From contig NZ_NBYX01000001.1 of the NCBI RefSeq assembly GCF_002099195.1, positions 1 to 39,826 of the forward strand: 39,826 nucleotides of DNA, read 5' to 3'. Below, piece after piece: positions 8,441 to 29,545 of this stretch (positions are counted from its first letter, which is position 1; each line of letters begins with the position of its first letter). The notes beneath the pieces are model-generated. The model did not search any database. It was not told the origin of the DNA and saw only the letters and a program-made list of their open reading frames with translations. The DNA is from Burkholderia puraquae. Lineage in GTDB: Bacteria > Pseudomonadota > Gammaproteobacteria > Burkholderiales > Burkholderiaceae. A program made the translations under genes and the position numbers.

Positions 8441-9945
<1,505 letters not shown>

Positions 9946-9948
9946 TTG

Positions 9949-13084: not shown

Positions 13085-13093
13085 GGCTCATAC

Positions 13094-13681: not shown

Positions 13682-13739
13682 ACGGAGCAGCGTGTTCAGC
13701 GCGCACCATCCCTACGCAGTCCTTTACCGAGGCATGACG

Positions 13740-15005: not shown

Positions 15006-16244
15006 ATGGCCACTGTGGAAATCGGGGGCGTCGACGCCGGCGCGGCGTCGGGCGCCTCCAAACCGGCGCCGCTCGACGGCGTTCGCGTGATCGACGCCGC
15101 GACGTTGTTCGCGGGCCCGCTTGCGGCGACGATGCTCGCGGACTACGGCGCCGACGTGATCAAGGTCGAGCATCCGGACGGCGATCCGGCACGCAAGTAC
15201 GGCGCGCGTCGCGACGACGTGCCTTTGTGGTGGAAGGTGCTCGCGCGCAACAAGCGGGCGGTCACGCTGAATCTCGGCACGGCCGATGGCCAGCGGATCT
15301 TCCGCGAACTGGCGGCGCAGGCGGACGTGGTCGTCGAGAATTTCCGGCCCGGCACGCTCGAACGCTGGGGCCTCGGCTACGACGTGCTGTCCGCGATCAA
15401 CCCGCGGCTCGTGCTGGTGCGGGTGACGGGCTTCGGCCAGTTCGGCCCGTATGCGAGTCGCCCGGGCTTCGGTACGCTGGCCGAGGCGATGAGCGGGCTC
15501 GCATCGATCACCGGCGAGGCGGACGGGCCGCCGCTCCTGCCGTCGTTTCCGCTCGCCGACACGGTCGCGGGGCTGACCGCCGCGTTCGCGATCATGACCG
15601 CGCTGAAGGCGCGCGAGCACACCGGGCGCGGCCAGGTCGTCGATCTCGCGATCATCGAGACGATGCTCGCCGCGATGGGCGCGCAAGTCGCGAGCTACGA
15701 CCAGACGGGCCGGGTGCCCGAGCGCACCGGCAATCGTTCGCCGAACAATTCGCCGCGCGGCGTTTACCGCACGTCGGACGGCAAGTGGGTCGCGCTGTCG
15801 ACGTCGGCGCACAGCATCGCCGAGCGCGTGATGCGCCTCGTCGGCCGCGCGGACCTGATCGACGAACCATGGTTCGCGAACGGCGCCGAGCGCGCGAAGC
15901 ATGCTGACGAACTGGATGCGGCGGTCGGCGGCTGGATCGGGCAGCGCACACGCGATGAGGTGATTGCCGAATTCGAGCGCGCGCAGGCGGCGGTCGCGCC
16001 GATCTACGACGTCGCCGACGTGCTGCGCGATCCGCAGTACGCGGCGCTCGGCTCGGTCGTGTCGGTGCCCGACGCGGAGCTCGGCGCGTTCCGCACGCAC
16101 AACGTGCCGTTCAGGCTGTCCGACACGCCTGGCGCGATCCGCTGGGGGGGACCTGCGCGCGGCACGCACAACGACGAAGTATTCGGCGCATTGGGGCTGG
16201 AGCGGCGCGAGATCGCCGATTTGACCGAACGAGGCGTGTTATGA
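15006..16244 (+). CDS. Class III (CaiB/BaiF) CoA-transferase, first copy
   Basis: A 412-residue cytoplasmic enzyme that moves CoA from a donor such as succinyl-CoA to an organic acid. The start is set by GGGAGA before ATG 15006. Family features: LDGVRVIDAATLFAGPLAA and LADYGADVIKVEHPDGDPAR near the N-terminus, RNKRAVTLNL, ENFRPGTLERWGLGY, TGFGQFGPYASRPGFGTLAE, and the likely catalytic Asp185 in FPLADTVAGLTAA, followed by GRGQVVDLAIIETML. Its stop overlaps the next start (ATGA), so it is translationally coupled to the CitE-like lyase. That pairing is typical of routes that activate a hydroxy-dicarboxylate (for example citramalate) and cleave it. A second copy lies at 25588. Confidence 0.9.
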   Translation: MATVEIGGVDAGAASGASKPAPLDGVRVIDAATLFAGPLAATMLADYGADVIKVEHPDGDPARKYGARRDDVPLWWKVLARNKRAVTLNLGTADGQRIFRELAAQADVVVENFRPGTLERWGLGYDVLSAINPRLVLVRVTGFGQFGPYASRPGFGTLAEAMSGLASITGEADGPPLLPSFPLADTVAGLTAAFAIMTALKAREHTGRGQVVDLAIIETMLAAMGAQVASYDQTGRVPERTGNRSPNNSPRGVYRTSDGKWVALSTSAHSIAERVMRLVGRADLIDEPWFANGAERAKHADELDAAVGGWIGQRTRDEVIAEFERAQAAVAPIYDVADVLRDPQYAALGSVVSVPDAELGAFRTHNVPFRLSDTPGAIRWGGPARGTHNDEVFGALGLERREIADLTERGVL

Positions 16245-17113
16245 AAACCAGTGCAACTTACCGCAGTTACCTCTACGTGCCCGCGCACAAGGCCCAGGTG
16301 GTGGAGAAGGCGTACGCAAGCGAAGCCGATGCCATTGTGCTCGACCTCGAGGATGCCGTGCCGGCCAGCCACAAGGCCGAGGCGCGCCAGGCAGCCGCCG
16401 CGATTCTCGCGGAAGGTCCGCCGAAGCCGACGTACGTGCGGATCAACCCGATCGGCAGCCCGTGGTGCCGCGACGACGTCGACGCGATCGCTCAGCCGGC
16501 GCTGCTGGCGCTGCGCCTGCCCAAATGCGACCTGCCGCAGCAGGTCCAGGAGGTCGCGGGCTGGCTCGACGCGCTCGGCTGCGATGCGGGCATCCAGATC
16601 CTGATCGAGTCGGCGTACGGCGTCGAGACGGCTTACCAGCTCGCGACCGCGTCCCCGCGGCTCGAACGGATCGGGCTCGGCGAGAGCGACCTGCGCGCGG
16701 ACCTGCAAATCGGCGTCGACAACTTCACGCTCGAGGTGTGCCGCGCGCGCTGCGTCGTCGCGTCGCGCGCGGCGGGGCTGAACGGGCCGATCCAGACCGT
16801 CTATCACACGCTGCCCGATCTCGACGGGCTGAAGGAATCGACGCTGCGCGCGAAATCGATGGGGTTCCTCGGCCGCTTCGCGATCCATCCGTCGCAGCTC
16901 CCGGTGATCAACGAGGTGTTCACGCCGTCGGACGACGAGATCCGCGCGGCCGAGCGCGTGCTCGAGGCGGTCGATGCGGCGGCGGGCAAGGCCTCGGCGT
17001 CGTCGGTGTTCGTGCTGCCGGACGGCCGTGTGGTCGCGCCGCCGCTGATCGCCAACGCGCGCGTGACACTCGCACTCGCGAACACGCTTCGACTCAGTGG
17101 AGCACTGGCATGA
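16241..17113 (+). CDS. HpcH/HpaI (CitE-like) acyl-CoA lyase, first copy
   Basis: A 290-residue TIM-barrel protein of the citrate lyase beta/malyl-CoA lyase family. Visible active-site elements are LDLEDAVP (34-41), Arg67 in YVRINP, the Mg ligand Glu123 in ILIESAYGV, Asp150 in GLGESDLRADL, and the C-terminal FAIHPSQLPVIN. Such enzymes split (S)-malyl-, citramalyl- or related beta-hydroxyacyl-CoA into acetyl-CoA (or propionyl-CoA) plus an oxoacid. It is coupled by ATGA overlaps to the CoA-transferase before it and to the MmgE/PrpD gene after it. The combination suggests it cleaves the CoA ester made by its neighbour; substrate specificity cannot be read. Confidence 0.9.
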   Translation: MKTSATYRSYLYVPAHKAQVVEKAYASEADAIVLDLEDAVPASHKAEARQAAAAILAEGPPKPTYVRINPIGSPWCRDDVDAIAQPALLALRLPKCDLPQQVQEVAGWLDALGCDAGIQILIESAYGVETAYQLATASPRLERIGLGESDLRADLQIGVDNFTLEVCRARCVVASRAAGLNGPIQTVYHTLPDLDGLKESTLRAKSMGFLGRFAIHPSQLPVINEVFTPSDDEIRAAERVLEAVDAAAGKASASSVFVLPDGRVVAPPLIANARVTLALANTLRLSGALA

Positions 17114-18591
17114 GCACACCCGAGACGCTTACCGCTCCGGCGACGGCCGCGACAAGCCGGCCTGCGCCACCCGACGGCATCATCGGTGCGCTCGGCCGCT
17201 TCGCGGCGGCGGTGCGCGCAGAAGGGCTGGATCGCAGGCTGCGTGTCGAGGCCGCCGCGCGCGTGCTCGACCTGGTCGGCAACAGCCTGATTGCGCACGA
17301 CGAACCGGTCGCACAGTCGGTGCTGCAGGTCGTGCGGCGCTGGGCCGGCACCGGCCCGGCGAGCGTGCTCGGCGCGCCCGACCGGCTGCCGGCCGCGAGC
17401 GCCGCGCTCGTCAACGGCACGCTCGCGCATGCGATGGATTTCGACGATTCGCACATGCTGTCGGTGCTGCACCCGAGCGCGTCCGTGATCCCGGCCGCGC
17501 TCGCCGCCGCGCAGGCGAGCGGCGCGTCGGGCGCGGCGCTGCTCGATGCGATCACGGTCGGCACCGAGGTGTGCATCCGGCTCGGCGTTGCCGCTTACAA
17601 CGAGCAGCTCGGCAATTCGGTGTTCTTCGAACGCGGCCAGCACGCGACGTCGATCTGCGGCACGGTCGGCGCGGCGGCGGCCGCGGCGATGCTATTCGGG
17701 CTCGATGCCGCGCAGATCGCGGCGGCGCTCGGCATTGCCGCAAGCATGGGCGCGGGCCTGCTCGAAGCAAACCGCACCGGCGGCTCGGTGAAGCGGATCC
17801 ACTGCGGCTGGGCGGCGCACGCCGGCGTGAGCGCGGCGGAACTGGCGGGCGCGGGCGTGACCGCGCCGCCGACCGCGCTCGAAGGCCGCTTCGGCTTCTT
17901 CCACGCGTGGTGCGGCGACCTCGCCGACGTCGACGTGGTGCTGCGCGGCCTGGGCGACGCATGGGAGACGAGCCGGATCATCTTCAAGCCGTATCCGTGC
18001 AACCATTTCACGCATCCGGGCATCGACGCGGCGCTGCAACTGAAGGCACAAGGCGTGACGGCGGACGATGTGGTATCGGCCGAGCTGCGGGTCGCGACGT
18101 CGACGCTGCGCACGATCGGCGAGCCGGCGGAGCTGAAGGCGAATCCGCCGAACGGCTATGCGGCGGCATTCTCGGGGCCGTACACGGTCGCGGCGGCGCT
18201 GCTCGGCGGCGGCGGGCTCGGCGTCTGGTTCGACGATTTCGGCGATGCGCTTGCGCAGGACCCCGCACGGCGCGCACTGGCCGCGAAGGTGCGCTGCGTG
18301 GCCGATCCGTGGTGCGACGCGCGCTTCCCGAATTTCCTGCCGGCCGTGCTGCGCGTCGAGCTGCGCGACGGGCAGGTGCGCGAGGCACGGATCGAGTCGA
18401 GCAAGGGCACCCATTCGCGGCCGCTGACCGAACAGGAGCTCACTGCGAAATTCGTGCTGGCGGCGAGTTCGGCGCTCGGCATGACGCGTGCGCTCGCGCT
18501 GCGCGACGCGGTGCAGGCACTGGCCGACGGCGCGCCGCTCGACGCGCTCGCGGCGCTGACGTCAGGCACTGAAGGAGGCCCCGGATCTTGA
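17110..18591 (+). CDS. MmgE/PrpD-family protein, cytoplasmic type
   Basis: A 493-residue protein. The family includes 2-methylcitrate dehydratase, cis-aconitate decarboxylase and iminodisuccinate epimerase. Landmarks are GTLAHAMDFDDSH (residues 103-115) followed by LHPSASVIPAALAAAQ, GQHATSICGTVGAAAAAAMLFGL, GGSVKRIHCGWAAHAG and KPYPCNHFTHPGIDAAL. The DFDDSH form is that of MmgE/decarboxylase-like members rather than the DFNDxxxxxEWGHPSDN form of PrpD proper. There is no signal peptide. It overlaps the lyase before it (ATGA) and the cyclase after it (TTGA). The actual reaction is open: dehydration, isomerisation, epimerisation or decarboxylation of a polycarboxylate. Confidence 0.88.
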   Translation: MSTPETLTAPATAATSRPAPPDGIIGALGRFAAAVRAEGLDRRLRVEAAARVLDLVGNSLIAHDEPVAQSVLQVVRRWAGTGPASVLGAPDRLPAASAALVNGTLAHAMDFDDSHMLSVLHPSASVIPAALAAAQASGASGAALLDAITVGTEVCIRLGVAAYNEQLGNSVFFERGQHATSICGTVGAAAAAAMLFGLDAAQIAAALGIAASMGAGLLEANRTGGSVKRIHCGWAAHAGVSAAELAGAGVTAPPTALEGRFGFFHAWCGDLADVDVVLRGLGDAWETSRIIFKPYPCNHFTHPGIDAALQLKAQGVTADDVVSAELRVATSTLRTIGEPAELKANPPNGYAAAFSGPYTVAAALLGGGGLGVWFDDFGDALAQDPARRALAAKVRCVADPWCDARFPNFLPAVLRVELRDGQVREARIESSKGTHSRPLTEQELTAKFVLAASSALGMTRALALRDAVQALADGAPLDALAALTSGTEGGPGS

Positions 18592-19607
18592 ATGCACCCC
18601 GCTGGAAAAAGCGGCCGCCCGGCTCGAACTGGGGCGATTTCGGCCCCGACGATCAGAAGGGGCGACTGAACTGGCTGACGCCGGACAAGGTACTGCAGGG
18701 CGTCGCCGAGGTCCGGGAAGGGCTGTCGTTTTCGCTGAGCCTGCCGCTCGACGTGCCGCGCGGCGGCGGGCTGAACGCGCGGCGCCGGCCGCCGGCCGTG
18801 ATGCCGGCGCTCTTGGGCGGCAAGCCGTACTTCGGCTATCGCGCCGACGAACAGGTTGCGAATGCAACCGATGTGGTCTGCGACGATGCGTTCTGCATGC
18901 ACTCGCAGTTCTCGACGCAATGGGACGGCTTGTCGCACGTGGGCGGCCTGTTCGACGCCGACGACGACGGCGTACCTGAAATCGTGTTCTACAACGGTTT
19001 CCGGATGGGCGAGCATCTGCGGGTGCCGCAGGAAGGCGACGCGGCGGGCGGCGCGCGCGCGCTCGGCATCGAGGTGATGGCGCAGACGGGCGTGCAGGGG
19101 CGCGGTGTGCTGATCGACCTGCGGCGTCATTTCGGCGACGCGCGCACGAAGGTCGGCTTCGCGCAACTGCTGCAGGTGATGGAGGCGGACGGCGTGCAGG
19201 TCGAGCACGGCGATATCGTCTGCATTCACACCGGCTTCGCGGATCTGCTGCTGAACGACGGCGGCGGATCGCCGGCGACGGTCGCGAGCGCGTGCGTGCT
19301 GGACAGCAGCGATGCGCGGCTGCTGCAATGGATCGACGAATCGGGGCTGGCCGCGCTCGTGGCCGACAACCATGCGATCGAGGAACGGCCGCAGCATGCG
19401 CAGCCGCTCGCGCAACCGGGCGCATTGATGCCGCTGCACGAACTTTGCCTGTTCAAGCTCGGCATTCACCTCGGCGAGCTGTGGCATCTGACGCCGCTCG
19501 CGAACTGGCTGCATGCGCACCGCAGGAACCGGTTTCTGCTGACCGCGCCGCCATTGCATATCCGCGGCCTGGTCGGCGCGCCGGCGAATCCTGTCGCAAC
19601 CGTTTGA
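18588..19607 (+). CDS. Cyclase-family (kynurenine formamidase-like) metal hydrolase, first copy; TTG start
   Basis: A 339-residue protein of the PF04199 fold. Translation starts at TTG 18588, overlapping the previous stop as TTGA; GAAGGAGG at 18571-18578, nine bases upstream, is a near-perfect ribosome site, and the ATG at 18592 is out of frame. The metal-site segment reads FCMHSQFSTQWDGLSHVG: compared with the classical HxGTHxDxPxH motif, the middle His is replaced by Gln, as in a group of long cyclase-like proteins. Other landmarks are LPLDVPRGGG, GIEVMAQTGVQGRGV, HTGFADLL and MPLHELCLFKLGIHLGELW. Family members open lactams, lactones or formamides. The second copy at 26955 has the same length and is nearly identical in long stretches. 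Confidence 0.87.
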   Translation: MNAPRWKKRPPGSNWGDFGPDDQKGRLNWLTPDKVLQGVAEVREGLSFSLSLPLDVPRGGGLNARRRPPAVMPALLGGKPYFGYRADEQVANATDVVCDDAFCMHSQFSTQWDGLSHVGGLFDADDDGVPEIVFYNGFRMGEHLRVPQEGDAAGGARALGIEVMAQTGVQGRGVLIDLRRHFGDARTKVGFAQLLQVMEADGVQVEHGDIVCIHTGFADLLLNDGGGSPATVASACVLDSSDARLLQWIDESGLAALVADNHAIEERPQHAQPLAQPGALMPLHELCLFKLGIHLGELWHLTPLANWLHAHRRNRFLLTAPPLHIRGLVGAPANPVATV

Positions 19608-19610
19608 GCC

Positions 19611-19648
19611 TGCGGGCGGCTGCTGCGGCGGCCGCCCGCATTTTTTTT
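19611..19648 (+). terminator. Rho-independent terminator of the first catabolic operon
   Basis: A perfect 10-base-pair stem TGCGGGCGGC/GCCGCCCGCA (19611-19620 with 19631-19640), 10-base loop, followed at once by eight T (19641-19648). It begins 4 bases after the cyclase stop and closes the operon. Confidence 0.93.
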
Positions 19649-19683
19649 GCAATGCGATCGGCATGCACAAAGCGCAAACTCAA

Positions 19684-19843
19684 TTGCCGATTGGCAAGAT
19701 AATCGGAAGAATCGATGCAAAACGGCTGATTTAACTTAAAAATATCGCTCACTATCTAAAAAATATCGACGCGTCAAGATTGGACTATTCTTGTGCATTG
19801 CACTAAATATCAGGGGATTGCTCCGCTTGCGGAATATCGCAAT
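19684..19843. promoter_or_regulatory. LysR-gene upstream region with three inverted repeats
   Basis: This AT-richer region holds TTGCC-gatt-GGCAA (19684-19697), GTGCA-T-TGCAC just before the centre, and TCCGC-tt-GCGGA (19822-19833) nested inside ATTGC/GCAAT (19817-19821 and 19839-19843). Any of these could be LysR-type sites. The gene to the left runs toward this region and ends at the terminator, so autoregulation is the simplest role. Confidence 0.4.
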
Positions 19844-19889
19844 GGTAATCGGAGGCGGTGATTAACCTGTTTAGTGGATGGTCGCAAAC

Positions 19890-20819
19890 ATGAATCTACG
19901 TTCGATCGATCTGAACCTGCTGGTCATACTCGATGCGCTGTTGACGGAGAAACAGGTCACACGGGCAGGCCTGAAGGTCGGGCTCACGCAGCCGGCCGTC
20001 AGCAATGCGCTGGCGCGGCTGCGGTTTGTGTTCAAGGACGAGATCCTGGCGCGCACTGCCGTCGGCATGGAATTGACGCCGCGCGCGCAGGCGCTGGCCA
20101 TGCCGATTCGACAGATCATGCAACAAATCGAGGAATTATTTGAATCGGATTATCAATTCAATGCATTTACGTCCGAGCGCCATTTTACGGTGCGCATGTC
20201 GGATCTCACCGAGCTGCTTTTACTGCCGGCCCTGCTGCGCTGCATGCGATTGACCAGCCCGAATATCGGCATGGACGTCGTGCACATGAGCGCCGCCAAG
20301 ACTGCCGACGCGCTCGAATCGGGGCTGCTCGACCTGGCGATCAGCGCGGGTCTCGAACATTCGGGCACGCTGTCGTCGCAAATCGTGTTTCATGACCGGA
20401 TGGTCTGCGTGATGAGCCGCAGTCATCCGGACGCGGGCAAGCCGCTGACGATCGACCGGTTCCTCGCGCTCGATTTCCTCAACGTGACGATCAACCCGGT
20501 CGATCACAGCCTGATCGACAACCTGCTCGCGAACATGAACTGCACGCGGCGCATCGCGCTCAACGTGCCGCACTGGCTCGTCGTGCCGAACATGCTCGAT
20601 GCGTTGCCGTACGCGGTGATCATGTCCGAGCGGCATGCGGTGAGTCTCGACGATGCGCGGCTCGTGATCCGCGAACTGCCGCTCGCGATGGAGCCCGTCG
20701 CGTGGTCGCTGTACTGGCACCGCCGCTACGACGGCAGCAACGCGCACGCGTGGCTGCGCGGCCGCATCGTCGAGGTCGCGGAAGCGCTCGAGCGGCACGG
20801 CGTCGCGGCGGAGGCTTAG
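19890..20819 (+). CDS. LysR-type transcriptional regulator (NodD/LeuO-like branch)
   Basis: A 309-residue DNA-binding protein. ATG 19890 gives the classic start MNLRSIDLNLLVILDALLTE; ATG 19878 would add four residues and cannot be excluded. The winged helix-turn-helix spans about 1-65 (VTRAGLKVGLTQPAVSNALARLR is the recognition part), and the rest is the inducer-binding domain, with LESGLLDLAISAGLE and FHDRMVCVMSRSHP. It sits between the two copies of the four-gene pathway, convergent with the exported PrpD-like gene (8-base gap). It likely senses a pathway substrate and may control the first operon even though that operon starts about 4.9 kb upstream; this is inference. Confidence 0.9.
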   Translation: MNLRSIDLNLLVILDALLTEKQVTRAGLKVGLTQPAVSNALARLRFVFKDEILARTAVGMELTPRAQALAMPIRQIMQQIEELFESDYQFNAFTSERHFTVRMSDLTELLLLPALLRCMRLTSPNIGMDVVHMSAAKTADALESGLLDLAISAGLEHSGTLSSQIVFHDRMVCVMSRSHPDAGKPLTIDRFLALDFLNVTINPVDHSLIDNLLANMNCTRRIALNVPHWLVVPNMLDALPYAVIMSERHAVSLDDARLVIRELPLAMEPVAWSLYWHRRYDGSNAHAWLRGRIVEVAEALERHGVAAEA

Positions 20820-20827
20820 CCCCCGGG

Positions 20828-22285
20828 TCAGCCGACGACGAGCAGCGGGGGCAGTGTCGCGACGTCGGGCTGTTCGTCGAGCCGCCACAGGTAATCGAGC
20901 GCCGCGCGGATCTGCGCCGGTTTCCAGTGCCGCCGGCAGTTCTTCGTGAACTTCGCGTCGTAGTCGTCGCGCCGCATTGGCCGCGTCGGCGAGCCGGGCA
21001 ACTCGTCCACCTGCTTCGCGCAGATCGTGCCGTCTTCGCACACGGCCATCACCCGGTTCGGCGCCTGCGCCGGATAGCGCGCGGTCAGCGCCGGGTCCTC
21101 GCGCACCGTGATCCGCTCGATCAGCGCGAGCAGCGCCGGATCGTGCAGCGCGTCGTGCCGGTAGCTTTCGGTCGTGATGTCGCCGTCGAGCATCGCACGC
21201 GCAACGATGTACGGCAGGCTGTGATCGGCCGTCTCGTGGGTCGACGGTGCCCATTTTTCGCGGTCGCGGCCGGCCGTCACGTAGCCGACCCCGGTCGTGT
21301 GGATCTCGATGCGCCGGATGCGGCGCAGGTCGCCAACCTGCGCGGCGACGTCGATCGCGGCCGGAATCGCGGTTTGCGTGAGCCCTTGCGCGGGATAGAA
21401 CTTCACGAAGCACTTGCCGATCCGGAATGCGCCGCCGCGCCCGCCGAATTCGCGCGTGTCGATGGCGAACGGCCCGGACACCTGCGGAAAGAACCCCGCC
21501 ATGCCTTCGAAGATCGGTGCGGGGCCGGTCAGCCCGGCGCGCGCGAGCTGCGTCGAGAACACTGCGTTGCGCGCCGCGTCCGCATCGGCGAGCGCCTTCC
21601 AGTTCGACAACTGCTGGACGCGCGTCTGGTTCAGCGCGAGATGGCTGTTGATCGACAGGTTCACTGCCTGCACCAGTTGCGGCGCGGGCATGCGCATCAG
21701 CTTGCCGGCGGCAAGCGCGACGGCGGGCAGGCTGTAGCACGTGTGGTCCCAGCCGCGCGGGCTGATCGCGGCGGCGTCCATCAGCCGGCATGCGATCTCG
21801 TACGCGATCGCGATCGACAGGATCAGGTCGCGGCCGTTCGCGTGCTGCGCTTCGGCGACGGCGAGGCACGCGGACATGTTGTCGCTCGGATGGCCGGTCT
21901 CCTTGCCGGCGTACGCGTCGTTGAAATCGTAGTAGCGCAGCGCGGTGCCGGTCGCGAACGCGGCGAGATCGGGGCTCGTGCGCTGGTTCGTGCCGACGAT
22001 CGTCGACACGCCGCCCGGCGACGCGAGCGCTGCGTCGCGCGCGATTCGCACCGGGCGTTCGTCGTGCGCGGCGATCGCGCAGCCGAGCGCATCGATCAGG
22101 TGGGCCTTAATCGTCTCGATCGTCGCGGCGTCGAGGTCACGATACTGCAGCCCGGCCGCGTAGTCGGCGAGCTGTTGCGCGAGATCCGGGCGGTCGGCGG
22201 CGAGCAGCGTGCCGGCGCGGGCCCGGGCGAGCGGCAGCGCGAGCGCCGCGCCGGTCAGGGTGGCAAGGAAGTAGCGGCGGTTCAT
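20828..22285 (-). CDS. PrpD-like (2-methylcitrate dehydratase family) protein with an export signal
   Basis: A 485-residue member of the MmgE/PrpD family. The motif RYYDFNDAYAGKETGHPSDN (117-136) and the later ETADHSLPYIVARAMLDGD match PrpD (2-methylcitrate dehydratase) much better than the first copy does. Unusually, the protein begins MNRRYFLATLTGAALALPLARARAG: a twin-arginine motif RRYFLA, a hydrophobic stretch and an AxA cleavage site (ARA-G, residues 22-25). The family is normally cytoplasmic, so a periplasmic, Tat-folded dehydratase or isomerase is implied. It is the last gene of a minus-strand group (lyase, porin, this gene) and begins 45 bases after the porin stop, so both may act on the incoming substrate in the periplasm. 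Confidence 0.88.
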   Translation of the reverse strand: MNRRYFLATLTGAALALPLARARAGTLLAADRPDLAQQLADYAAGLQYRDLDAATIETIKAHLIDALGCAIAAHDERPVRIARDAALASPGGVSTIVGTNQRTSPDLAAFATGTALRYYDFNDAYAGKETGHPSDNMSACLAVAEAQHANGRDLILSIAIAYEIACRLMDAAAISPRGWDHTCYSLPAVALAAGKLMRMPAPQLVQAVNLSINSHLALNQTRVQQLSNWKALADADAARNAVFSTQLARAGLTGPAPIFEGMAGFFPQVSGPFAIDTREFGGRGGAFRIGKCFVKFYPAQGLTQTAIPAAIDVAAQVGDLRRIRRIEIHTTGVGYVTAGRDREKWAPSTHETADHSLPYIVARAMLDGDITTESYRHDALHDPALLALIERITVREDPALTARYPAQAPNRVMAVCEDGTICAKQVDELPGSPTRPMRRDDYDAKFTKNCRRHWKPAQIRAALDYLWRLDEQPDVATLPPLLVVG

Positions 22286-22330
22286 GGTGCGATGACTCCG
22301 GAGGTTCCTGAAACGGGGGGGGAAGCGAGC

Positions 22331-23413
22331 TCAGAACAGCTTGCGCAGGCCAAGTGCTGCGCCTGCGCTGCTGGCGCGGTCGGCGGCCAGCGTGTAGTGG
22401 AGGAAGCTGTAGTTGTAGTTGTCGAAATCGAGCGCGGCGCGGCGCGCGTAGCCGCTCGCCAGGTAAAGCGTGACGGCTTTCGACAGGAAGTAGTTCAGCT
22501 GCAGCGTGACCTGCTGCGGGTTGGCGGGGTGCGGTGCGCTTGCGTGCGCGCTCGGCGGGTTCTGCGTGCGGATGTCCTCGTAATAGAACGCGCCGACCGC
22601 TTGCAGGAACGGGGTGATCGCGTAGCGCACGCCGGCCCACCAGAACGTGTAGCGCGTCACGACCGATGGCGTTGCGACGCCGCTTTGGCCGTGCGTGACG
22701 CCGGCCAGCAGTTGTGCGCGGTCGACGGACACGATCGCGGCGGCGGCGTAGCGGCGGAAATGCGCGAAGCCGCCCGGCTGCGGCGTGTTGACGTTGTCGA
22801 ATGCGGCGGCGAACGAGAAGGTGCCGCCGGCATAGTCGAAGCCGGCGCCGTACGCGGCGTTCGACTGGAATGCGCCGGGCGTGCCGCCGAACGAATAGTG
22901 CGTTTCGAGCGTCAGCGAGCCGATCTTCGCCAGGTACTTGGCGACGTTGTTCTCGCGGAAATTGACGCCGACGATCGCGCCGGCCGGCTCGTACAGCGTC
23001 GAGTACGCACCCGTCGGCGAATAGGGCTCCATGACGTCGAACAGCGTCGAGTACTGGTGGCCGAGCCGCAACGCGCCCCAGTGCTCGTGCTGCAGCCCGA
23101 CCCACGCAGAGCGGTCGAAGCCGCCCGCACCGGTGCCGGTGCCGTTGTTCAGGTTGATCCCGCTTTCGAGCCGGAACGCGGCCTGCCAGCCGCCACCGAG
23201 ATCCTCGACGCCCTTCAGGCCCCAGCGCGAGCCGCTCTTGCCGCCCGACGCCATTCGCACGAGCGATGCCGACGACTTGTCGCCGGGCGCGGCCTGGTGG
23301 GTGAGGAATTCCGTATAGATGTCGGCCACGCCATACAGCGTGATCGTGCTTTGCGCGCAGGCGCTGGCCGAAACGAGGCCCAGTCCGCACAGTGCGGACA
23401 CTCGCTTGCCCAT
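22331..23413 (-). CDS. Outer-membrane porin (Gram-negative porin family 4)
   Basis: A 360-residue trimeric beta-barrel porin. It has a signal peptide (MGKRVSALCGLGLVSASACAQ), the typical mature start STITLYGVADIYTEF, the segment GSRWGLKGVEDLGGGWQAAFRLESG common to Burkholderia OpcP-type porins, a constriction-loop region EPYSPTGAYST, and a final Phe needed for outer-membrane insertion. AAGGAG precedes the start. It lies between the CitE-like and PrpD-like genes on the same strand, so it probably admits the substrate of this pathway. Selectivity cannot be read from sequence. Confidence 0.93.
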   Translation of the reverse strand: MGKRVSALCGLGLVSASACAQSTITLYGVADIYTEFLTHQAAPGDKSSASLVRMASGGKSGSRWGLKGVEDLGGGWQAAFRLESGINLNNGTGTGAGGFDRSAWVGLQHEHWGALRLGHQYSTLFDVMEPYSPTGAYSTLYEPAGAIVGVNFRENNVAKYLAKIGSLTLETHYSFGGTPGAFQSNAAYGAGFDYAGGTFSFAAAFDNVNTPQPGGFAHFRRYAAAAIVSVDRAQLLAGVTHGQSGVATPSVVTRYTFWWAGVRYAITPFLQAVGAFYYEDIRTQNPPSAHASAPHPANPQQVTLQLNYFLSKAVTLYLASGYARRAALDFDNYNYSFLHYTLAADRASSAGAALGLRKLF

Positions 23414-23555
23414 GGCTTGTCTCCTTCGTGGGTTTGTTATTTATTTGATTGCCGCGCTGCGCCGGTCGAGCAGCGCGGCGGTGCTGCGGGGCGACGCTAT
23501 CCGGGCCGGGCGGCGAACGGGCCGCGTCGTGGCGGAACGGGCGTGTGCGGCACGC

Positions 23556-23575
23556 GACCTGCGCATGCGCAGGTC
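23556..23575. promoter_or_regulatory. Perfect 20-base palindrome upstream of the porin
   Basis: GACCTGCGCA pairs with TGCGCAGGTC with no spacer. It lies in the 202-base gap between the end of the CitE-like gene and the porin start, 143 bases before the porin. It could be an operator for separate porin control or a processing/termination hairpin for the lyase transcript. No T run is seen on the minus strand. Confidence 0.5.
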
Positions 23576-23615
23576 ACGCAGCTACGAAACGCAGCGATGA
23601 GGGCCTGCGCTCGCA

Positions 23616-24518
23616 TCACCGGGACGTGCCGTCGGCACGCGCCTGCACGGCCGCGTGACGCGCGAGCACACGCTTCGCACGGGCGACGCCGGGTGCGTCG
23701 ATCATCCGGCCGTCGACGCGCAGCGCGCCGCGTCCGTTCGCGCGGGCGTCGTCGTAGGCGGCCAGCAGCGCGTTCGCGTCGCGCACCGCGTCATCGTCGG
23801 GCCGGAACGCGCGGTTCAGCGCGCCGACCTGCAGCGGATGGATGCACGTTGCGCCTGCATAGCCCAGCTCCGCGGACGCGCGCGCGGTGCGTTCGAATGC
23901 GTCGAGATCGCGCAGCTCGTCGAGGCCGCCGATCAGGCCGAGCGGCAGGATGCCGGCGGCGCGCGCGGCGATGATCAGCAACTGCTTCGGCACGCGCAGC
24001 ACGTCGGCGCCCGCGCCGCTTTCGCAGTTCAGCGCGAAATCGCCGCCACCCAGCATCATCGCGACGACGCGAGGCGACGCACGCGCGATCCGGTCCATTG
24101 CCTGGAATGCGCGCGGCGTTTCGACGATCGCGACGATCCGCGTGCCGCCGGGCGGCGCGCCGGCTTCCTCCTCGAGCGTAGCCAGCAGTTCGTCGATCGC
24201 CTCGACGTGCGAGCCGCCGCGCACCTTCGGCAGCACGACGCCGTCCACGCCGGCCCGGACGGCCGCACGCAGGTCGGGCACCAGCAGGTCGAGCGGGCCG
24301 TTGGCGCGCACCAGCACGTTGCGGCCGGGCGCGCGCAATGCCGGCACGGCGTCGGCCAGCCCGTCGCGGGCAGCCTCCTTGCACGCGGGCGGGACGCTGT
24401 CCTCGAGGTCGAGGATCAGCGCATCGGCGTCGCTCGCGGCGGCCGATGCGACGAAACGGGGGACGTGGGCGGGGACGTAAAGCAGCGAGCGCCAGACGGG
24501 CTGGGATGGCGAATTCAT
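23616..24518 (-). CDS. HpcH/HpaI (CitE-like) acyl-CoA lyase, second copy
   Basis: A 300-residue lyase of the same family as the protein at 16241. Active-site landmarks are YVPAHVPRF, LDLEDSVPP (36-44), Arg71 in LVRANGP, Glu133 in AIVETPRAF, Asp160 in LGGGDFALN and CIHPLQVGALN. It differs strongly from the first copy (GGGDFALNC in place of GESDLRADL), so the two may accept different CoA esters. It is the first gene on the minus side of the divergent IclR-controlled promoter; an operator palindrome begins 12 bases upstream of its ATG. Confidence 0.9.
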   Translation of the reverse strand: MNSPSQPVWRSLLYVPAHVPRFVASAAASDADALILDLEDSVPPACKEAARDGLADAVPALRAPGRNVLVRANGPLDLLVPDLRAAVRAGVDGVVLPKVRGGSHVEAIDELLATLEEEAGAPPGGTRIVAIVETPRAFQAMDRIARASPRVVAMMLGGGDFALNCESGAGADVLRVPKQLLIIAARAAGILPLGLIGGLDELRDLDAFERTARASAELGYAGATCIHPLQVGALNRAFRPDDDAVRDANALLAAYDDARANGRGALRVDGRMIDAPGVARAKRVLARHAAVQARADGTSR

Positions 24519-24529
24519 CAGTTCTCTCT

Positions 24530-24554
24530 AAAAATGAAAGTCACTTTCATTTTT
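24530..24554. promoter_or_regulatory. IclR/KdgR-type operator 1 (lyase side)
   Basis: A perfect 25-base palindrome: AAAAATGAAAGT, central C, ACTTTCATTTTT. The core AATGAAA...TTTCATT fits the KdgR-type IclR-family box (AATGAAAC-N3-GTTTCATT). It ends 12 bases from the lyase start codon, where bound protein would block the ribosome site and early transcript. Confidence 0.8.
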
Positions 24555-24648
24555 GTGATGGATGACCCCATTCGTCAAGATTATCGTTAACGCCTAGTTT
24601 CAAAGGGGATTGCGCGACGATGAGCGCGCGAAGCTGCACGGATTCATG

Positions 24649-24692
24649 TTGATGTCATCGAGGATGTGCGTATAATGAAAGTGACTTTCATT
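24649..24692 (+). promoter_or_regulatory. iclR promoter overlapped by IclR/KdgR-type operator 2
   Basis: TTGATG (24649-24654), 16 bases, TATAAT (24671-24676) is a strong sigma-70 promoter facing the regulator gene. The perfect 19-base palindrome AATGAAAGT-G-ACTTTCATT (24674-24692) starts inside the -10 box, so the regulator probably represses itself. Its core differs from operator 1 only at the central base. Confidence 0.8.
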
Positions 24693-24749
24693 TTTCGGGT
24701 GCCGGCCGCCGCCACGCGGCACGTATGCCCGGCATCGCACGAGGTGGAC

Positions 24750-25514
24750 ATGAGCAAGGTGGAGACAAACAATCCGGCCGAGGGCGGCGTGGCCGCGGTC
24801 AACCGCGCGCTGACCGCGCTGCTGGCGTTCGGCAATGCACCCGGCGGGCTGATGCTTGCGCAGGTCAGCGAGGAGACGGGGCTCAACATGAGCACGCTGT
24901 TGCGGATGTTCGAATCGCTCGAGCAGTTCCGCTTCATCAAGCGCCTGCCGGACGGGCGCTACGTGCTGGGGCCCGCCGTGTTCCAGCTCGGGATGATGTA
25001 TCGCGAGTCGTTCCAGCTGCGGGCGTACGTGATGCCGATCCTGTCGAAGCTGTCGGTGGCAACCGGCGAGACGGCCGCGTTTTACGTGCGCGAAGGCGAC
25101 CAGCGCGTGTGCCTGTTCCGCATCCAGGCCCAGCGCTCGGTGCGGACGCATCTGCGCGAGGGCGACCGCTTCCCGCTCGACGTCGGTGCGGCCGGGCGCG
25201 TGCTGCTTGCATTCAGCGGCACGCGCGGCGGCGACTACGAGAAGACGGCCGAGCAGGGCTACGCGGTGTCGATTGCCGAGCGCGACCCGGAAAGCGCGGC
25301 GATCGCGTGCCCGGCGTTCGGCGTCGGCCGCGTGCTGAGCGGCGCGATTTCGCTCGGCGTGCCGCGCTATCGCTTCAACAAGAAGGTGCAGGCCGACTAC
25401 CTGCCGTACGTGCAGGCGGCCGCCGCCGAGCTGACGCATGCGCTGGGCGGCGATCTGCCCGCCGCGGGCGGGGCATTCCGGGCGGCCGACCAGCTCGGCG
25501 AGCTGCTCGAGTAA
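24750..25514 (+). CDS. IclR-family transcriptional regulator of the second pathway copy
   Basis: A 254-residue regulator. The start at ATG 24750 (MSKVETNNPAEGG) follows GAGGTGG; the frame stays open further upstream but an earlier start would lie within the operator. Residues about 14-75 form the winged helix-turn-helix (VNRALTALLAFGNAPGGLMLAQVSEETGLNMSTLLRMFESLEQF), and residues about 85-250 the GAF-like effector domain with HLREGDRFPLDVGAAGRVLLAF. It stands between divergent gene groups with two matching palindromes, the usual layout for a local IclR repressor or activator. Its effector is probably the substrate or an intermediate of the flanking enzymes. Confidence 0.93.
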   Translation: MSKVETNNPAEGGVAAVNRALTALLAFGNAPGGLMLAQVSEETGLNMSTLLRMFESLEQFRFIKRLPDGRYVLGPAVFQLGMMYRESFQLRAYVMPILSKLSVATGETAAFYVREGDQRVCLFRIQAQRSVRTHLREGDRFPLDVGAAGRVLLAFSGTRGGDYEKTAEQGYAVSIAERDPESAAIACPAFGVGRVLSGAISLGVPRYRFNKKVQADYLPYVQAAAAELTHALGGDLPAAGGAFRAADQLGELLE

Positions 25515-25587
25515 CGCCGTGCGCGGCTGAGCGCGCGGCCTTGCCCGCATTCCACGTCGAACGACACACACCAACCAGGAGACAAGC

Positions 25588-26868
25588 ATGTTCGTTCCCG
25601 ATCCGCAGGCCGCTCACGCGGCCGGCGCGCGCCGTCGCGCGTCCACCGGCCCGATCCATCCGAAACCGTTCGACGCCGGCGCGCAGGGGCCGCTCGCGTG
25701 CGTGCGCGTCGTCGACCTGTCGCGCCTGATGGCGGGCAACATGCTGAGCGTGCAGCTCGCCGATTTCGGCGCGGACGTCGTGAAGGTCGAGAGCGAGCGC
25801 GGCGATACGCTGCGCGCGGTCGGCGCGGGCGGGATCAGCACGAACTGGAAGGTGTACGGGCGCAACAAGCGCAGCGTATGCGTCGACCTGCGCGCGCCGG
25901 AGGGGATCGACATCGTCCGCCGGCTGGTGCGCGACGCGGACGTGTTCGTCGAGAGCTTCAAGCCCGGCGTCGCCGAGAAGATGGGGCTCGGCCCGGACGA
26001 CCTGCTCGCGATTCGTCCCGGGCTGGTGATCGCGCGGATCTCGGGCTGGGGGCAGACCGGGCCGTACCGCCACAAGCCTGGCTTCGGCACGCTCGCGGAA
26101 GGGTACGCGGGGTTCGCGGCGATCAACGGCTTCGCCGATCGTGAGCCGGTGCTGCCGCCGATGTTCCTCGGCGACATGACGGCCGGGCTGTCCGGGGCGA
26201 TCGCCGTGCTGGTCGCGCTGCATGCGCGCGATGCGCACGGCGCGGCGGGGCAGGTGATCGACGTGTCGCTGTTCGAGCCGCTGCTGTCGATCCTCGGGCC
26301 GGCCGCCGCGAACTACGTCATGTCGGGCGAGATCAAGGCGCGCACCGGCAGCCGCTCGTCGAATACCGCGCCGCGCAACGCGTACCGCACCCGCGACGGC
26401 AAGTGGCTGTGCCTGTCGAGCTCGACGCAGGCGATGGCCGAGCGGCTGTTCCGCGCGATCGGCCGCGCGGACCTGATCGACGATCCGCGCTACGCGACCA
26501 ACGTGCAGCGCGTGCAGCACGCGGAGGCGCTCGATGCGATCGTCGGCGAATTCATCGCCGCGCGCGATCTCGACGCCAATCTCGCGTTCTTCGAGCAAGC
26601 GGGCGTGACGGCCGGGCCGATCCACGATATCGCACAAATCGTTCAGGATCACTACGTGATTGAGCGCGAAGCGCTCGTCGAGCTGCCGGACGACGACGTC
26701 GGCAGCCTGCCGATGCACAACATCACGCCGCGCCTGTCCGCCACGCCCGGCACGTTTCGCCGGCCGGCGCCCGCGCTCGGCGAGAACAATCGCGAGATCC
26801 TGATGCCGCTGCTCGGCGAACACGAGTACGAGCGGCTCGCCGGGCTGGGCGTGATCCGCACGCGCTAG
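25588..26868 (+). CDS. Class III (CaiB/BaiF) CoA-transferase, second copy
   Basis: A 426-residue relative of the protein at 15006. AGGAGA precedes ATG 25588. Landmarks are VRVVDLSRLMAGNMLSVQLADFG, ADVVKVESERGDTLR, GRNKRSVCVDLRAPEG, ESFKPGVAEKMGLG, KPGFGTLAEGYAGFAAING and the likely catalytic Asp196 in MFLGDMTAGLSGA. A 30-residue N-terminal extension is absent from most family members. It starts 73 bases after the iclR stop and 86 bases before the second cyclase, so it probably belongs to the IclR-controlled plus-strand group. It would make the CoA ester cleaved by the lyase at 23616. Confidence 0.9.
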   Translation: MFVPDPQAAHAAGARRRASTGPIHPKPFDAGAQGPLACVRVVDLSRLMAGNMLSVQLADFGADVVKVESERGDTLRAVGAGGISTNWKVYGRNKRSVCVDLRAPEGIDIVRRLVRDADVFVESFKPGVAEKMGLGPDDLLAIRPGLVIARISGWGQTGPYRHKPGFGTLAEGYAGFAAINGFADREPVLPPMFLGDMTAGLSGAIAVLVALHARDAHGAAGQVIDVSLFEPLLSILGPAAANYVMSGEIKARTGSRSSNTAPRNAYRTRDGKWLCLSSSTQAMAERLFRAIGRADLIDDPRYATNVQRVQHAEALDAIVGEFIAARDLDANLAFFEQAGVTAGPIHDIAQIVQDHYVIEREALVELPDDDVGSLPMHNITPRLSATPGTFRRPAPALGENNREILMPLLGEHEYERLAGLGVIRTR

Positions 26869-26954
26869 GCGAGAAACCTCGGGCGCGACGCGGCCGCGAA
26901 GGACGGTCCCGCGCGCCGGCCGCCGCACCCTGGACATTGCATGGAGGAGACACC

Positions 26955-27974
26955 ATGAAGCCACGCTGGACCCATCGGCCGCCCGGCTCGAACTGGGGGG
27001 ATTTCGGCCCGGACGATCAGAAAGGGCGCTTGAACTGGCTGACTGCCGACGCGGTGCTGCGCGGCGTCGCCGAGGTGCGCGAAGGCCGTGTGTTTTCGCT
27101 CAGCCTGCCGCTCGACGTGCCGCGCGGCGGCGGGCTGAACGCGCGGCGCCGGCCGCCGGCGATCATGCCGGCGTTGCTCGGCGACAAGCCGTACTTCGGC
27201 TATCGGGCGGACGAACAGGTTGCCAACGCAACCGATGTGGTTTGCGACGATTCGTTCTGCATGCACTCGCAGTTCTCGACGCAGTGGGATGCGCTGTCGC
27301 ATGTCGGCTCGCTGTTCGATCCGGCGGGCGACGGCGAGCGAGCCCGCGTGTTCTACAACGGCTACCGGATGGACGAGCACATCCACGTGCCCGAAGCCGG
27401 TTCGACGCGCGGCGGCGCGCGTGCGCTCGGCATCGAGGTGATGGCGCAAACCGGCGTGCAGGGGCGCGGCGTGCTGGTCGACCTGCGCCGCCACTTCGGC
27501 GACGCGCGGCGCAAGATCGGCTATGCGGAATGGATGGCGGTGCTGCGCGCGGATGACGTCGTTGTCGAGCGTGGCGACATCGTGTGCGTGCATACGGGCT
27601 TCGCCGATCGCCTGCTCGACGCCGACGCGCGTGGCGAGCCCGGCGCGCCGGACGTGTGCTGCGTGCTCGACGGAAACGATCCGCGCCTGCTCGAATGGAT
27701 CGACGCATCGGGGCTCGCCGCGCTCGCGGCCGACAACCACGCGGTCGAGGAGCGCCCGCGCCATGCGTCGGCGCGCGAGCGGCCCGCCGCGCTGATGCCG
27801 CTGCACGAGCTGTGCCTGTTCAAGCTTGGCATTCATCTCGGCGAGCTGTGGCACCTGACGCCGCTTGCCGACTGGTTGAGCGCGCACCGGCGCAACCGCT
27901 TCCTGCTGACCGCGCCGCCGCTGCACCTGCGCGGGCTCGTCGGGTCGCCGGTCAATCCGGTCGCCACCGTATGA
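26955..27974 (+). CDS. Cyclase-family metal hydrolase, second copy
   Basis: A 339-residue protein of the same length as the copy at 18588 and identical to it over long runs, for example RPPGSNWGDFGPDDQKGRLN, SLPLDVPRGGGLNARRRPP and HLGELWHLTPLA; by eye about three quarters of all residues match. GGAGGA lies before ATG 26955. The metal-site region again reads HSQFSTQWDALSHVG with Gln for the middle His. Because the two copies are so alike, they should act on the same or a very similar compound, while the CoA-transferases and lyases have drifted further apart. Confidence 0.88.
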   Translation: MKPRWTHRPPGSNWGDFGPDDQKGRLNWLTADAVLRGVAEVREGRVFSLSLPLDVPRGGGLNARRRPPAIMPALLGDKPYFGYRADEQVANATDVVCDDSFCMHSQFSTQWDALSHVGSLFDPAGDGERARVFYNGYRMDEHIHVPEAGSTRGGARALGIEVMAQTGVQGRGVLVDLRRHFGDARRKIGYAEWMAVLRADDVVVERGDIVCVHTGFADRLLDADARGEPGAPDVCCVLDGNDPRLLEWIDASGLAALAADNHAVEERPRHASARERPAALMPLHELCLFKLGIHLGELWHLTPLADWLSAHRRNRFLLTAPPLHLRGLVGSPVNPVATV

Positions 27975-28057
27975 ACGCCGGCGCCGTGCGCACGCCGCGC
28001 CGGCGCCCAGTCCGCCGCTTCGCGCACGCCGCGCGGGCGGATCACCGAGGAGTCGCC

Positions 28058-29545
28058 ATGTCCCATTCCCATGCGGCGTCGATCGCCGCGCGCATCGACC
28101 GCCTGCCCGCGACGGCCAGCATCTGGACGCTCGTGCTGTTCCTGAGCGTTGGCGGCTTTTTCGAGGTCTACGACCTGTTCCAGATGACCTACCTGCCGCC
28201 GGGGCTGATCCGCGACGGCATCTTTCACGCGGGCTCGCACGGCGTGCTCGGCATGTCCGACCAGGGCGCACTCGGCGCGGCGACGTTCGCCGGGCTGTTT
28301 GTCGGCGAGATGTTCGTGTCGCGCCTCGCGGATCGCTTCGGACGGCGTGCGCTGTTCACCGGCGCGCTGCTGCTCTACACGGCTGCGAGCCTTGCGATGT
28401 GCGTGCAGACGCATGCGCTCGGCATCCTCGTGTGCCGTTTCATCGCGGGCTGCGGCATCGGCGCGGAGCTGATCACGATCAGCGCGTTCCTGACCGAGCT
28501 GGTGCCGAAGGCGGTGCGCGGCCGCGCGTTCGCGCTGTGCTTCGCGGTCGGCTATCTCGCGATGCCCGTGCTCGCGCTGGTGTCGTGGCTATGGGTGCCG
28601 CGCGATCCGCTCGGGATGTCCGGGTGGCGCTGGGTCGTGCTGCTCGGCAGTAGCGGTGCGGTCGTCGTCTGGTGGCTGCAGTCTCGGTTGCCGGAGTCGC
28701 CGCGCTGGCTCGCCCGCACCGGCCGCGAAGCCGAGGCCGAAGCCGTGCTGCAGCGGCTCGAGCAGGCGGTCGAGCGGGAATCCGGCCGGCCGCTGCCCGC
28801 GGTCCGGCCGCCGGCCGCAGCTGCCCCGGCTGCGCAGCGCGCGCCGTCGATGTGGGACGCGCGGCATCGCGGCCGCACGGCGATGCTGATCACGTTCAAT
28901 GCATTCCTGAGCATCGGCTTCTTCGGCTTCAGCCAGTGGCTGCCGACGCTGCTCGCCGCGCAGGGCGCAACCGTCACGAAGAGTCTCTGGTATGCGTTCG
29001 TGATCGCGTTTGCGTATCCGGTGTCGCCGCTCGTCGCCGGCTTGCTGGCCGACCGGATCGAGCGCAAGTGGCTGATCGTCGCGTCGGCGTTCGGCGTCGC
29101 GCTGTTCGGCACCGCGTTCGCGATGTCGGCGCAGGCGCCGTTCGTGATCGCGTTCGGCTTGCTCGTCACGCTGTCCAATACGGTGCTCGCGAGCAACGGC
29201 ACCGCGTACCAGTCGGAAGTGTTTCCGACCGAGATCCGCGGGCGCGCGCTCGGCTTCGTACATTCGATCGGCCGCCTGACGGGCATCGCGAGCAGTTTCA
29301 TCGTCGCGCTGTTGCTCGAACGCGCCGGGGTGTCCGCGGTTTTCGTGCTGATCGGCGGCAGTATGCTGATCGTGATGGTGGCGATCGGTGTGTTTGGGCC
29401 GTGCACCAACAACCGGGCGCTGGACGAGATCACGGGCCGCAGCGAGGATGGAGCCGAGCGCGCGGCGGTGGTGCGCGGGCTCGCCGCATTGCCGGATCGG
29501 CATGCCAACGGGCGGCGAAAAGGAGCCAGGGATGGGGCCGCGTAA
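28058..29545 (+). CDS. MFS metabolite:proton symporter (12 membrane segments)
   Basis: A 495-residue importer of the sugar/aromatic-acid MFS branch. GAGGAG precedes ATG 28058. Helix 1 has LFLSVGGFFEVYDLFQMTYL, motif A is FVSRLADRFGRRALFTG, then RFIAGCGIGAELITISAFLTELVP, a central loop with RLPESPRWLARTGREAEAE, and SEVFPTEIRGRALGFVHSIGR in the second half. These PESPRWL and E(x)6R patterns are typical of metabolite symporters. It follows the second cyclase by 83 bases and ends the plus-strand group, so it is the likely inner-membrane importer of the pathway substrate, matched to the porin on the other strand. Confidence 0.9.
   Translation: MSHSHAASIAARIDRLPATASIWTLVLFLSVGGFFEVYDLFQMTYLPPGLIRDGIFHAGSHGVLGMSDQGALGAATFAGLFVGEMFVSRLADRFGRRALFTGALLLYTAASLAMCVQTHALGILVCRFIAGCGIGAELITISAFLTELVPKAVRGRAFALCFAVGYLAMPVLALVSWLWVPRDPLGMSGWRWVVLLGSSGAVVVWWLQSRLPESPRWLARTGREAEAEAVLQRLEQAVERESGRPLPAVRPPAAAAPAAQRAPSMWDARHRGRTAMLITFNAFLSIGFFGFSQWLPTLLAAQGATVTKSLWYAFVIAFAYPVSPLVAGLLADRIERKWLIVASAFGVALFGTAFAMSAQAPFVIAFGLLVTLSNTVLASNGTAYQSEVFPTEIRGRALGFVHSIGRLTGIASSFIVALLLERAGVSAVFVLIGGSMLIVMVAIGVFGPCTNNRALDEITGRSEDGAERAAVVRGLAALPDRHANGRRKGARDGAA

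Follow-up and report, generated by a model that had tools for sequence, protein, structure and literature searches.

A probable catabolic locus of Burkholderia puraquae with two linked sets of CoA-transferase, CitE-like lyase, MmgE/PrpD and cyclase-family genes

We analysed a stretch of 39,826 nucleotides from Burkholderia puraquae (contig NZ_NBYX01000001.1, positions 1 to 39,826 of the forward strand; hereafter the window), in which genes for a class III CoA-transferase, a CitE-like CoA ester lyase, an MmgE/PrpD family protein and a cyclase-family protein occur in two neighbouring sets. An earlier reading, made from the sequence alone, placed these four families in one coupled operon at 15006–19607 and again, rearranged, at 20828–29545. 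Scans with Pfam and NCBIfam models, the Pfam scan covering the main ones among the 104 listed open reading frames (ORFs), confirmed every named family at its position. The features are as follows.

11582..13084, plus strand: mfs0, MFS transporter (Pfam MFS_1), likely part of set 1
13094..13681, plus strand: iso, isochorismatase-family hydrolase (Pfam; NF008517, 197 bits against a cut-off of 195), likely part of set 1
13692..14903, plus strand: adh, zinc-binding-dehydrogenase-like protein (Pfam ADH_zinc_N), linked to cat1-lyase1
15006..16244, plus strand: cat1, class III CoA-transferase of set 1 (CoA_transf_3, 8e-130)
16241..17113, plus strand: lyase1, CitE-like CoA ester lyase of set 1 (HpcH_HpaI, 1.7e-30)
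17110..18591, plus strand: prpD1, MmgE/PrpD family protein of set 1 (MmgE_PrpD_N/C), without an export signal
18588..19607, plus strand: cyc1, cyclase family protein of set 1 (PF04199, 39.4 bits against 23.1), with a TTG start at 18588
19878..20819, plus strand: lysR, LysR family protein (Pfam) between both sets, candidate regulator of set 1
20828..22285, minus strand: prpD2, MmgE/PrpD family protein of set 2 (Pfam), with a motif of a twin-arginine (Tat)-type signal peptide
22331..23413, minus strand: por, outer-membrane porin of set 2 (Porin_4)
23616..24518, minus strand: lyase2, CitE-like CoA ester lyase of set 2 (HpcH_HpaI, 2.8e-32)
24533..24551, no strand: operator candidate 1, palindrome AATGAAAGTCACTTTCATT
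24674..24692, no strand: operator candidate 2, palindrome AATGAAAGTGACTTTCATT
24750..25514, plus strand: iclR, IclR regulator of set 2 (Pfam IclR_C and HTH_IclR)
25588..26868, plus strand: cat2, class III CoA-transferase of set 2 (CoA_transf_3, 1.6e-111)
26955..27974, plus strand: cyc2, cyclase family protein of set 2 (PF04199, 37.3 bits against 23.1)
28058..29545, plus strand: mfs, MFS transporter of set 2

Set 1 consists of cat1-lyase1-prpD1-cyc1 (15006–19607), all on the plus strand and with a 4-base overlap at each of the three junctions; the start of prpD1 falls within an ORF at 16462–18591. The lyase1 product has Arg, Glu and Asp motifs, which we take to be the catalytic residues. Set 2 (20828–29545) is split into prpD2, por and lyase2 on the minus strand and iclR, cat2, cyc2 and mfs on the plus strand. 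The product of mfs, for which the best NCBIfam model is the aromatic acid/H+ symport family (below cut-off), may act as an importer. A long ORF on the minus strand at 26865–28271, antisense to cyc2 and its neighbours, has no Pfam match and is probably a by-product of high GC content. Set 1 is likely larger than first described and includes the genes at 11582–14903 (mfs0, iso and adh), because Trinickia diaoshuihuensis keeps two blocks together, namely mfs0-iso-prpD1-cyc1, which adjoins prpD2 (L018), and adh-cat1-lyase1, which lies on another contig about 19 kb from lyase2 (L122). The iso product is predicted to hydrolyse an amide.

The sequence-only reading treated the pathway as present twice, as if one pathway had been doubled and had then diverged. 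Identities between the two sets amount to 78% for the cyclases, 45% for the CoA-transferases, 32% for the lyases and 28% for the PrpD proteins, in agreement with its estimate of cyclases about three-quarters identical and of diverged lyases and PrpD-like proteins. We further built quick trees with values of the Shimodaira–Hasegawa-like approximate likelihood ratio test (SH-aLRT) and without bootstrap, in which long branches were flagged and a few rows are copies of one species. In the 58-row CoA-transferase tree, cat1 clusters with actinomycete CoA-transferases (26 rows, SH-aLRT 98) and cat2 belongs to a separate clade of 20 rows (SH-aLRT 100). Similarly, lyase1 clusters with the lyase of Streptantibioticus cattleyicolor (12 rows, SH-aLRT 99) and lyase2 falls into a clade of 18 rows (SH-aLRT 100). 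In the cyclase tree, 29 rows form a single clade that includes both cyclases (SH-aLRT 99), apart from 85 others; this tree leaves out the too distant actinomycete cyclases and does not resolve the order within the clade. The CoA-transferase, lyase and PrpD pairs are therefore of separate lineages and only the cyclases are closely related, so that the idea of one pathway doubled is not supported. Duplication of the whole pathway was rejected on the CoA-transferase, lyase and cyclase trees, the cyclases alone being recent paralogues. On the simplest reading, set 1 would come from an actinomycete-like module that carries a set-2-type cyclase in Burkholderia, and both sets were probably put together separately.

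The window proteins were compared with two groups of loci (75 and 20) from other genomes. Both sets occur together in five loci (L012, L013, L014, L017 and L019, the stretch of L019 being without prpD2), as well as in two loci cut by contig ends (L015, L016) and in a B. stagnalis record (L121). Seven loci (L021–L023, L025–L028) have set 2 but no set 1 within the stretch compared, all seven with por, and L029 has set 2 without prpD2; L020 and L024 are fragments at contig ends and come from genomes that are in the count already. Ralstonia sp. A12 possesses set 2 without an orthologue of lyase1, and an iso relative adjoins set 2 in Ralstonia. In a census of 65 genomes of the genus, with cut-offs of E <= 1e-120 for prpD2 and lyase1 and E <= 1e-80 for lyase2, prpD2 was present in 25 genomes, lyase2 in 21 and lyase1 in 16. 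Among the 16 genomes with lyase1, all have prpD2 and 15 have lyase2 (Fisher p 4e-9, for species that are not independent). The single genome with lyase1 and without lyase2, G565, is 94% complete in 480 contigs and has prpD2; it is one of four genomes with prpD2 and without lyase2 (together with G578, G590 and G594). The distance between the starts of lyase1 and prpD2 is 4.6–5.5 kb in 14 of the 16 genomes and 13.9 kb in one, the two genes lying on separate contigs in the last. Set 1 is linked to set 2 in the genus. Within the family, PrpD1 relatives above 70% identity were found in 4 of 150 genomes, and relatives of 35–39% identity in 16 more.

The neighbourhood is conserved across phyla. On plasmid pSCAT of S. 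cattleyicolor, relatives of cat1 (58%), lyase1 (56%), prpD1 (57%), mfs0 (43%) and iso (45%) lie together with a cyclase, and plasmid pDND3A of Rhodococcus gordoniae carries together genes for a CoA transferase, a CoA ester lyase, a cyclase and an MmgE/PrpD protein; the record of the latter names families only and that of pSCAT lists no genes. A PrpD1 relative (E <= 1e-60) was found in 20 of 246 actinomycete genomes. For comparison we took 15 actinomycete loci with 49–60% identity to PrpD1 (two of which, L126 and L130, stop at contig ends) and two of the five matches of 36–38% (L141, L142), leaving out fragments in G385 and G352. At the bit thresholds used, the 15 loci contain a cyclase (15 loci), PrpD1 (14), a cat1-type CoA-transferase (11), an allantoinase-like amidohydrolase (10), a lyase (9) and an FAD_binding_2 protein (5), the queries for the amidohydrolase and FAD_binding_2 proteins being those of R. 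gordoniae. All four core genes are present in seven of the 15, or nine at looser thresholds; L140 fails the PrpD1 threshold alone. No MaoC protein was found in any of the 15 at these thresholds. The best models for the R. gordoniae amidohydrolase are allantoinase and dihydropyrimidinase, both below cut-off, which hints at a ring-opening step. Its FAD protein scores best with flavocytochrome c (197 vs 285 bits). In Methylobacterium, the lyase, CoA-transferase and PrpD genes of a set-2 relative adjoin genes for a 2-hydroxycarboxylate transporter and for an amidohydrolase, for which the nearest model is 4-sulfomuconolactone hydrolase (171 vs 500 bits). The sequence-only reading had taken a lack of relation between the two sets in most genomes as the outcome that would speak against it; the search for the four-family neighbourhood revealed conserved co-occurrence. 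The locus is real and conserved, and it is probably catabolic.

Two copies of the perfect palindrome AATGAAAGTNACTTTCATT, at 24533 and 24674, are located between lyase2 and iclR, at the divergent promoter of set 2. None was expected by chance in 100 shuffles, and the 8.1-Mb genome has just these 2 sites. The 15-base core recurs exactly, once or more, in 13 of the 15 loci with a whole intergenic region, L019 and L026 being the ones that lack it. These candidate operators may be bound by IclR, which would then control set 2; the nearest NCBIfam models of this regulator are PcaR/PobR and BhcR, below cut-off. Elsewhere in the window, an alpha/beta hydrolase (lipase-like) gene is followed by a lipase chaperone gene at 8842–10992, and an alginate-lyase domain accompanies a concanavalin-like lectin domain at 2449–4746.

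The genome contains three PrpD-family genes: prpD1, prpD2 and a better-scoring homologue elsewhere. Both window proteins miss the equivalog cut-offs for 2-methylcitrate dehydratase PrpD, with 197 vs 950 and 123 vs 575 bits for PrpD2 and 54 vs 950 bits for PrpD1. A structure model of PrpD1 (predicted local distance difference test score, pLDDT, 88) finds cis-aconitate decarboxylase (CAD/IRG1), a Bacillus homologue and IDS epimerase as the best PDB folds, with template-modelling scores by query of 0.74–0.80 for the first ten, and the core His, Asp and Lys residues of the family are conserved in the protein. Among 7997 scored database proteins, 3788 match PrpD1 at E <= 1e-60; the named ones among the best 120 are given as MmgE/PrpD, 2-methylcitrate dehydratase or propionate-catabolism proteins, none with a tested function. 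Excerpts of one paper (PMC12290011) report MmgE/PrpD homologues in 19.2% of the species searched and list four characterised activities. In B. paludis (G299), a tblastn search located three PrpD-family genes with relatives of two aldehyde dehydrogenases, one CoA-transferase and one CitE-like lyase at 2.5–16.6 kb of locus L147, a further unassigned context for this family.

PrpD2 has an RRxFL motif near its N-terminus, which is found in 16 of the 18 homologues compared (window included). The exceptions are a Variovorax protein without the motif (L118) and a Methylobacterium one whose start cannot be judged owing to two overlapping frames (L119); a relative from T. fusca (L146; 49% identity) has a twin-Arg variant. 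At 7.8–9.2 kb of L119, from Methylobacterium sp. NMS14P, the match to the prpD2 relative is broken into two stretches that overlap and lie in different frames, and PLSDB lists no gene there. No RRx motif is present in the first 35 residues of PrpD1. By its twin-arginine motif PrpD2 is predicted to be exported, and the Tat-type signal on this protein but not on PrpD1 means that the sets are not equivalent. The part of the matching literature examined held no report of an exported MmgE/PrpD protein.

We propose, with a probability of about 45%, that each set converts a branched dicarboxylate, built on a four-carbon 1,4-diacid backbone, to its CoA ester and cleaves this to an acyl-CoA and a 2-oxoacid; the cyclase would likely release the acid from a cyclic imide, a lactone or an amide. 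The two sets would then be linked routes that work without a hydratase and degrade related branched 1,4-dicarboxylates, or cyclic or amide compounds that give rise to them. All of the reactions in this proposal are inferred, as are the class of substrate, the way in which the sets were assembled, PrpD2 export and IclR control. The compound would be imported by the porin and an MFS transporter, and the free diacid would be released by the cyclase, together with the isochorismatase-family hydrolase in set 1. The MmgE/PrpD protein could then act on the free diacid at C2/C3 via an enolate, by epimerisation or hydration, yielding an isomer or hydroxyacid accepted by the CoA-transferase. The latter would form a 3-hydroxyacyl-CoA, to be cleaved by the CitE-like lyase in a retro-Claisen reaction into pieces for central metabolism. 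This order of ring or amide opening, PrpD adjustment, CoA transfer and cleavage is proposed because the locus shares the transferase, PrpD and lyase families with the itaconate cluster, gave no MaoC match, and has hydrolase-family genes in place of the hydratase and dehydrogenase. In line with the earlier reading, which had noted no MaoC-type hydratase, one MaoC protein gave no tblastn match in the window, and there is none among the Pfam-scanned ORFs. A hydratase would not be needed if the hydroxyl is already in the substrate or is added by PrpD. The logic of a CoA-transferase with a CitE-like lyase, also recognised earlier, is supported; the two genes lie in one operon in set 1, and the set-2 genes are divergent.

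Several observations weigh against this reading. In excerpts of PMC6117287, characterised cyclase relatives carry the metal-binding motif HxG[T/A]HxDxPxH, whereas the corresponding segments of cyc1 and cyc2 read QFSTQWDGLSH and QFSTQWDALSH. Glutamine occupies two of the motif histidine positions in all 21 aligned cyc1-type sequences, in which Q104, Q108, D110 and H114 are invariant. With these two histidines absent, it is uncertain whether cyc1 and cyc2 act as metal-dependent hydrolases, which is a specific weakness of the proposed hydrolytic step. The uncharacterised structure 5ibz, the best sequence match of both, has the same two glutamines; the cyc1 structure model (pLDDT 54) gives its fold search little weight. 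Actinomycete-type cyclases keep the histidines, with HVGTH[VI]DAxxH in 18 of 18 ORFs, and are only 27–31% identical to cyc1 and cyc2. Nor is the cyclase subfamily specific to the pathway, since it occurs in many other gene contexts: of 150 genomes from the order, 24 encode a cyc1/cyc2-type cyclase, and annotated relatives adjoin TTT receptors, RraA or altronate dehydratase. Among 57 more distant cyclase loci (L030–L086, many on short contigs), a CoA-transferase relative above 40% occurs only in L084 (60%), with weaker matches of 29–37% to the CoA-transferase in L079 and L085 and to the lyase (32–34%) in L070, L072, L080 and L084. The actinomycete loci differ as well: iso, mfs0 and adh were found in none of the 15 at the bit thresholds used, and neither their amidohydrolase nor their FAD protein finds a match in the window. 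Finally, at the position of Tyr145, the second base of IDS epimerase, members of the PrpD1 clade carry Phe and then Glu or Asp, so that epimerisation by PrpD1 is not secured; on this ground we refrain from naming PrpD1 an epimerase outright.

The best-surviving alternative, though an unlikely one, is the view of the sequence-only reading that the locus holds two complete parallel pathways for different substrates, which have in common only the chemistry of the cyclase step. Each set has its own regulator and transporter, the lyases share the low identity given above, and lyase2 occurs without lyase1 in 6 of the 21 genus genomes that have it, as set 2 does in Ralstonia sp. A12. Yet only one of the 16 genomes with lyase1 lacks lyase2, and that genome still has prpD2, while the set-2-type cyclase in Burkholderia set 1 suggests overlapping substrates. 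A shared hydrolytic step is plausible, if weakened by the missing cyclase histidines and the other cyclase contexts; simple parallel routes are disfavoured by the two PrpD proteins being predicted in different compartments.

A divergent itaconate, methylsuccinate or citramalate route yielding acetyl-CoA and pyruvate appears quite improbable. It would employ the same three families, lyase1 scores best with RipC_Ccl among the NCBIfam models, and PrpD1 shares 38–39% identity with PrpDs from Azospirillum and Pseudosulfitobacter whose genes adjoin those for acyl-CoA dehydrogenase and MaoC proteins (36–39% to PrpDs of itaconate-type neighbourhoods, with a different active-site region). However, both lyases miss the RipC/Ccl equivalog cut-off widely (154 bits for lyase1 and 140 for the other, against 375), and besides MaoC, one acyl-CoA dehydrogenase protein, searched as a methylsuccinyl-CoA dehydrogenase, found no match in the window. 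Moreover, the genome has a separate CoA-transferase–lyase pair elsewhere (L003), whose lyase is itself below the cut-off (162 bits). Membership of the locus in the canonical itaconate, methylsuccinate or methylcitrate pathway was rejected on such tests. Least likely of all is a locus consuming aconitate- or alkylcitrate-type acids with PrpD1 as a CAD- or PrpD-like tricarboxylate decarboxylase or dehydratase: the best matches (CAD/IRG1 and IDS epimerase for PrpD1 by both sequence and fold, 2-methylcitrate dehydratases for PrpD2 by sequence), the missing Tyr second base and the score of the R. gordoniae FAD protein with the tricarballylate dehydrogenase TcuA (150 vs 369 bits) favour it, but decarboxylation to itaconate would require a hydratase, none of which was found, and both PrpDs fall short of the equivalog scores.

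Returning to the proposed CoA-dependent cleavage of branched diacids, the breakdown route has probably not been described previously. Searched by literal terms, which other wordings would escape, the open-licence PubMed Central (PMC) literature yielded no paper with the set of PrpD, CoA transferase, CoA ester lyase and cyclase, in line with the earlier statement that no described pathway has this gene set; nor did it mention 'prpd family protein' jointly with 'cyclase family protein', or R. gordoniae strain DND3. The excerpts consulted from the cyclic-imide literature place the imidase HxnM in a family other than that of the window cyclases. A bolder version, which we regard as possible but doubtful, is an undescribed pathway without a hydratase that degrades branched 1,4-diacids in cyclic or amide-bound form, is common to Actinomycetes and Burkholderia and was assembled twice in one locus, with a periplasmic MmgE/PrpD isomerase or hydratase as the first exported member of its family. 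The cross-phylum operon context constrains one large unassigned MmgE/PrpD clade, and the locus offers a predicted exported member together with two cyclases whose altered metal motif is directly testable. If the substrate class is right, soil bacteria would have an added route for ring- or amide-bound branched diacids into central metabolism.

Among known systems, the nearest is the itaconate/methylsuccinate cluster Ict-Ich-Ccl-Mcd-Msi of C. necator and P. aeruginosa. According to excerpts of PMC12290011, it likewise unites a CoA-transferase, a CitE-like lyase and an MmgE/PrpD protein, the last of which is a proven isomerase acting on free methylsuccinate before the itaconate CoA-transferase. 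It also includes a hydratase and an acyl-CoA dehydrogenase, neither of which found a match in the window, where a cyclase, an isochorismatase-family hydrolase and adh are present instead; the export-signal motif of PrpD2 is a further difference from its PrpD. 2-Methylcitrate dehydratase PrpD and cis-aconitate decarboxylase belong to the same superfamily as the window PrpDs and share the fold of the PrpD1 model, but the window proteins score below the curated cut-offs, and a better-scoring homologue lies elsewhere in the genome. Isatin hydrolase and the bacterial kynurenine formamidase KynB are members of the same Pfam family as cyc1 and cyc2 (PF04199); the actinomycete counterparts share the HxGTHxDxxxH part of their motif, whereas in cyc1 and cyc2 two of its histidines are replaced by Gln. 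Finally, the plasmid clusters of R. gordoniae (pDND3A) and S. cattleyicolor (pSCAT) possess the same four families as set 1, with CoA-transferase, lyase and PrpD proteins 41–60% identical, and differ from the window in their cyclase subfamily and, in Rhodococcus, in the additional allantoinase-like and FAD_binding_2 genes.

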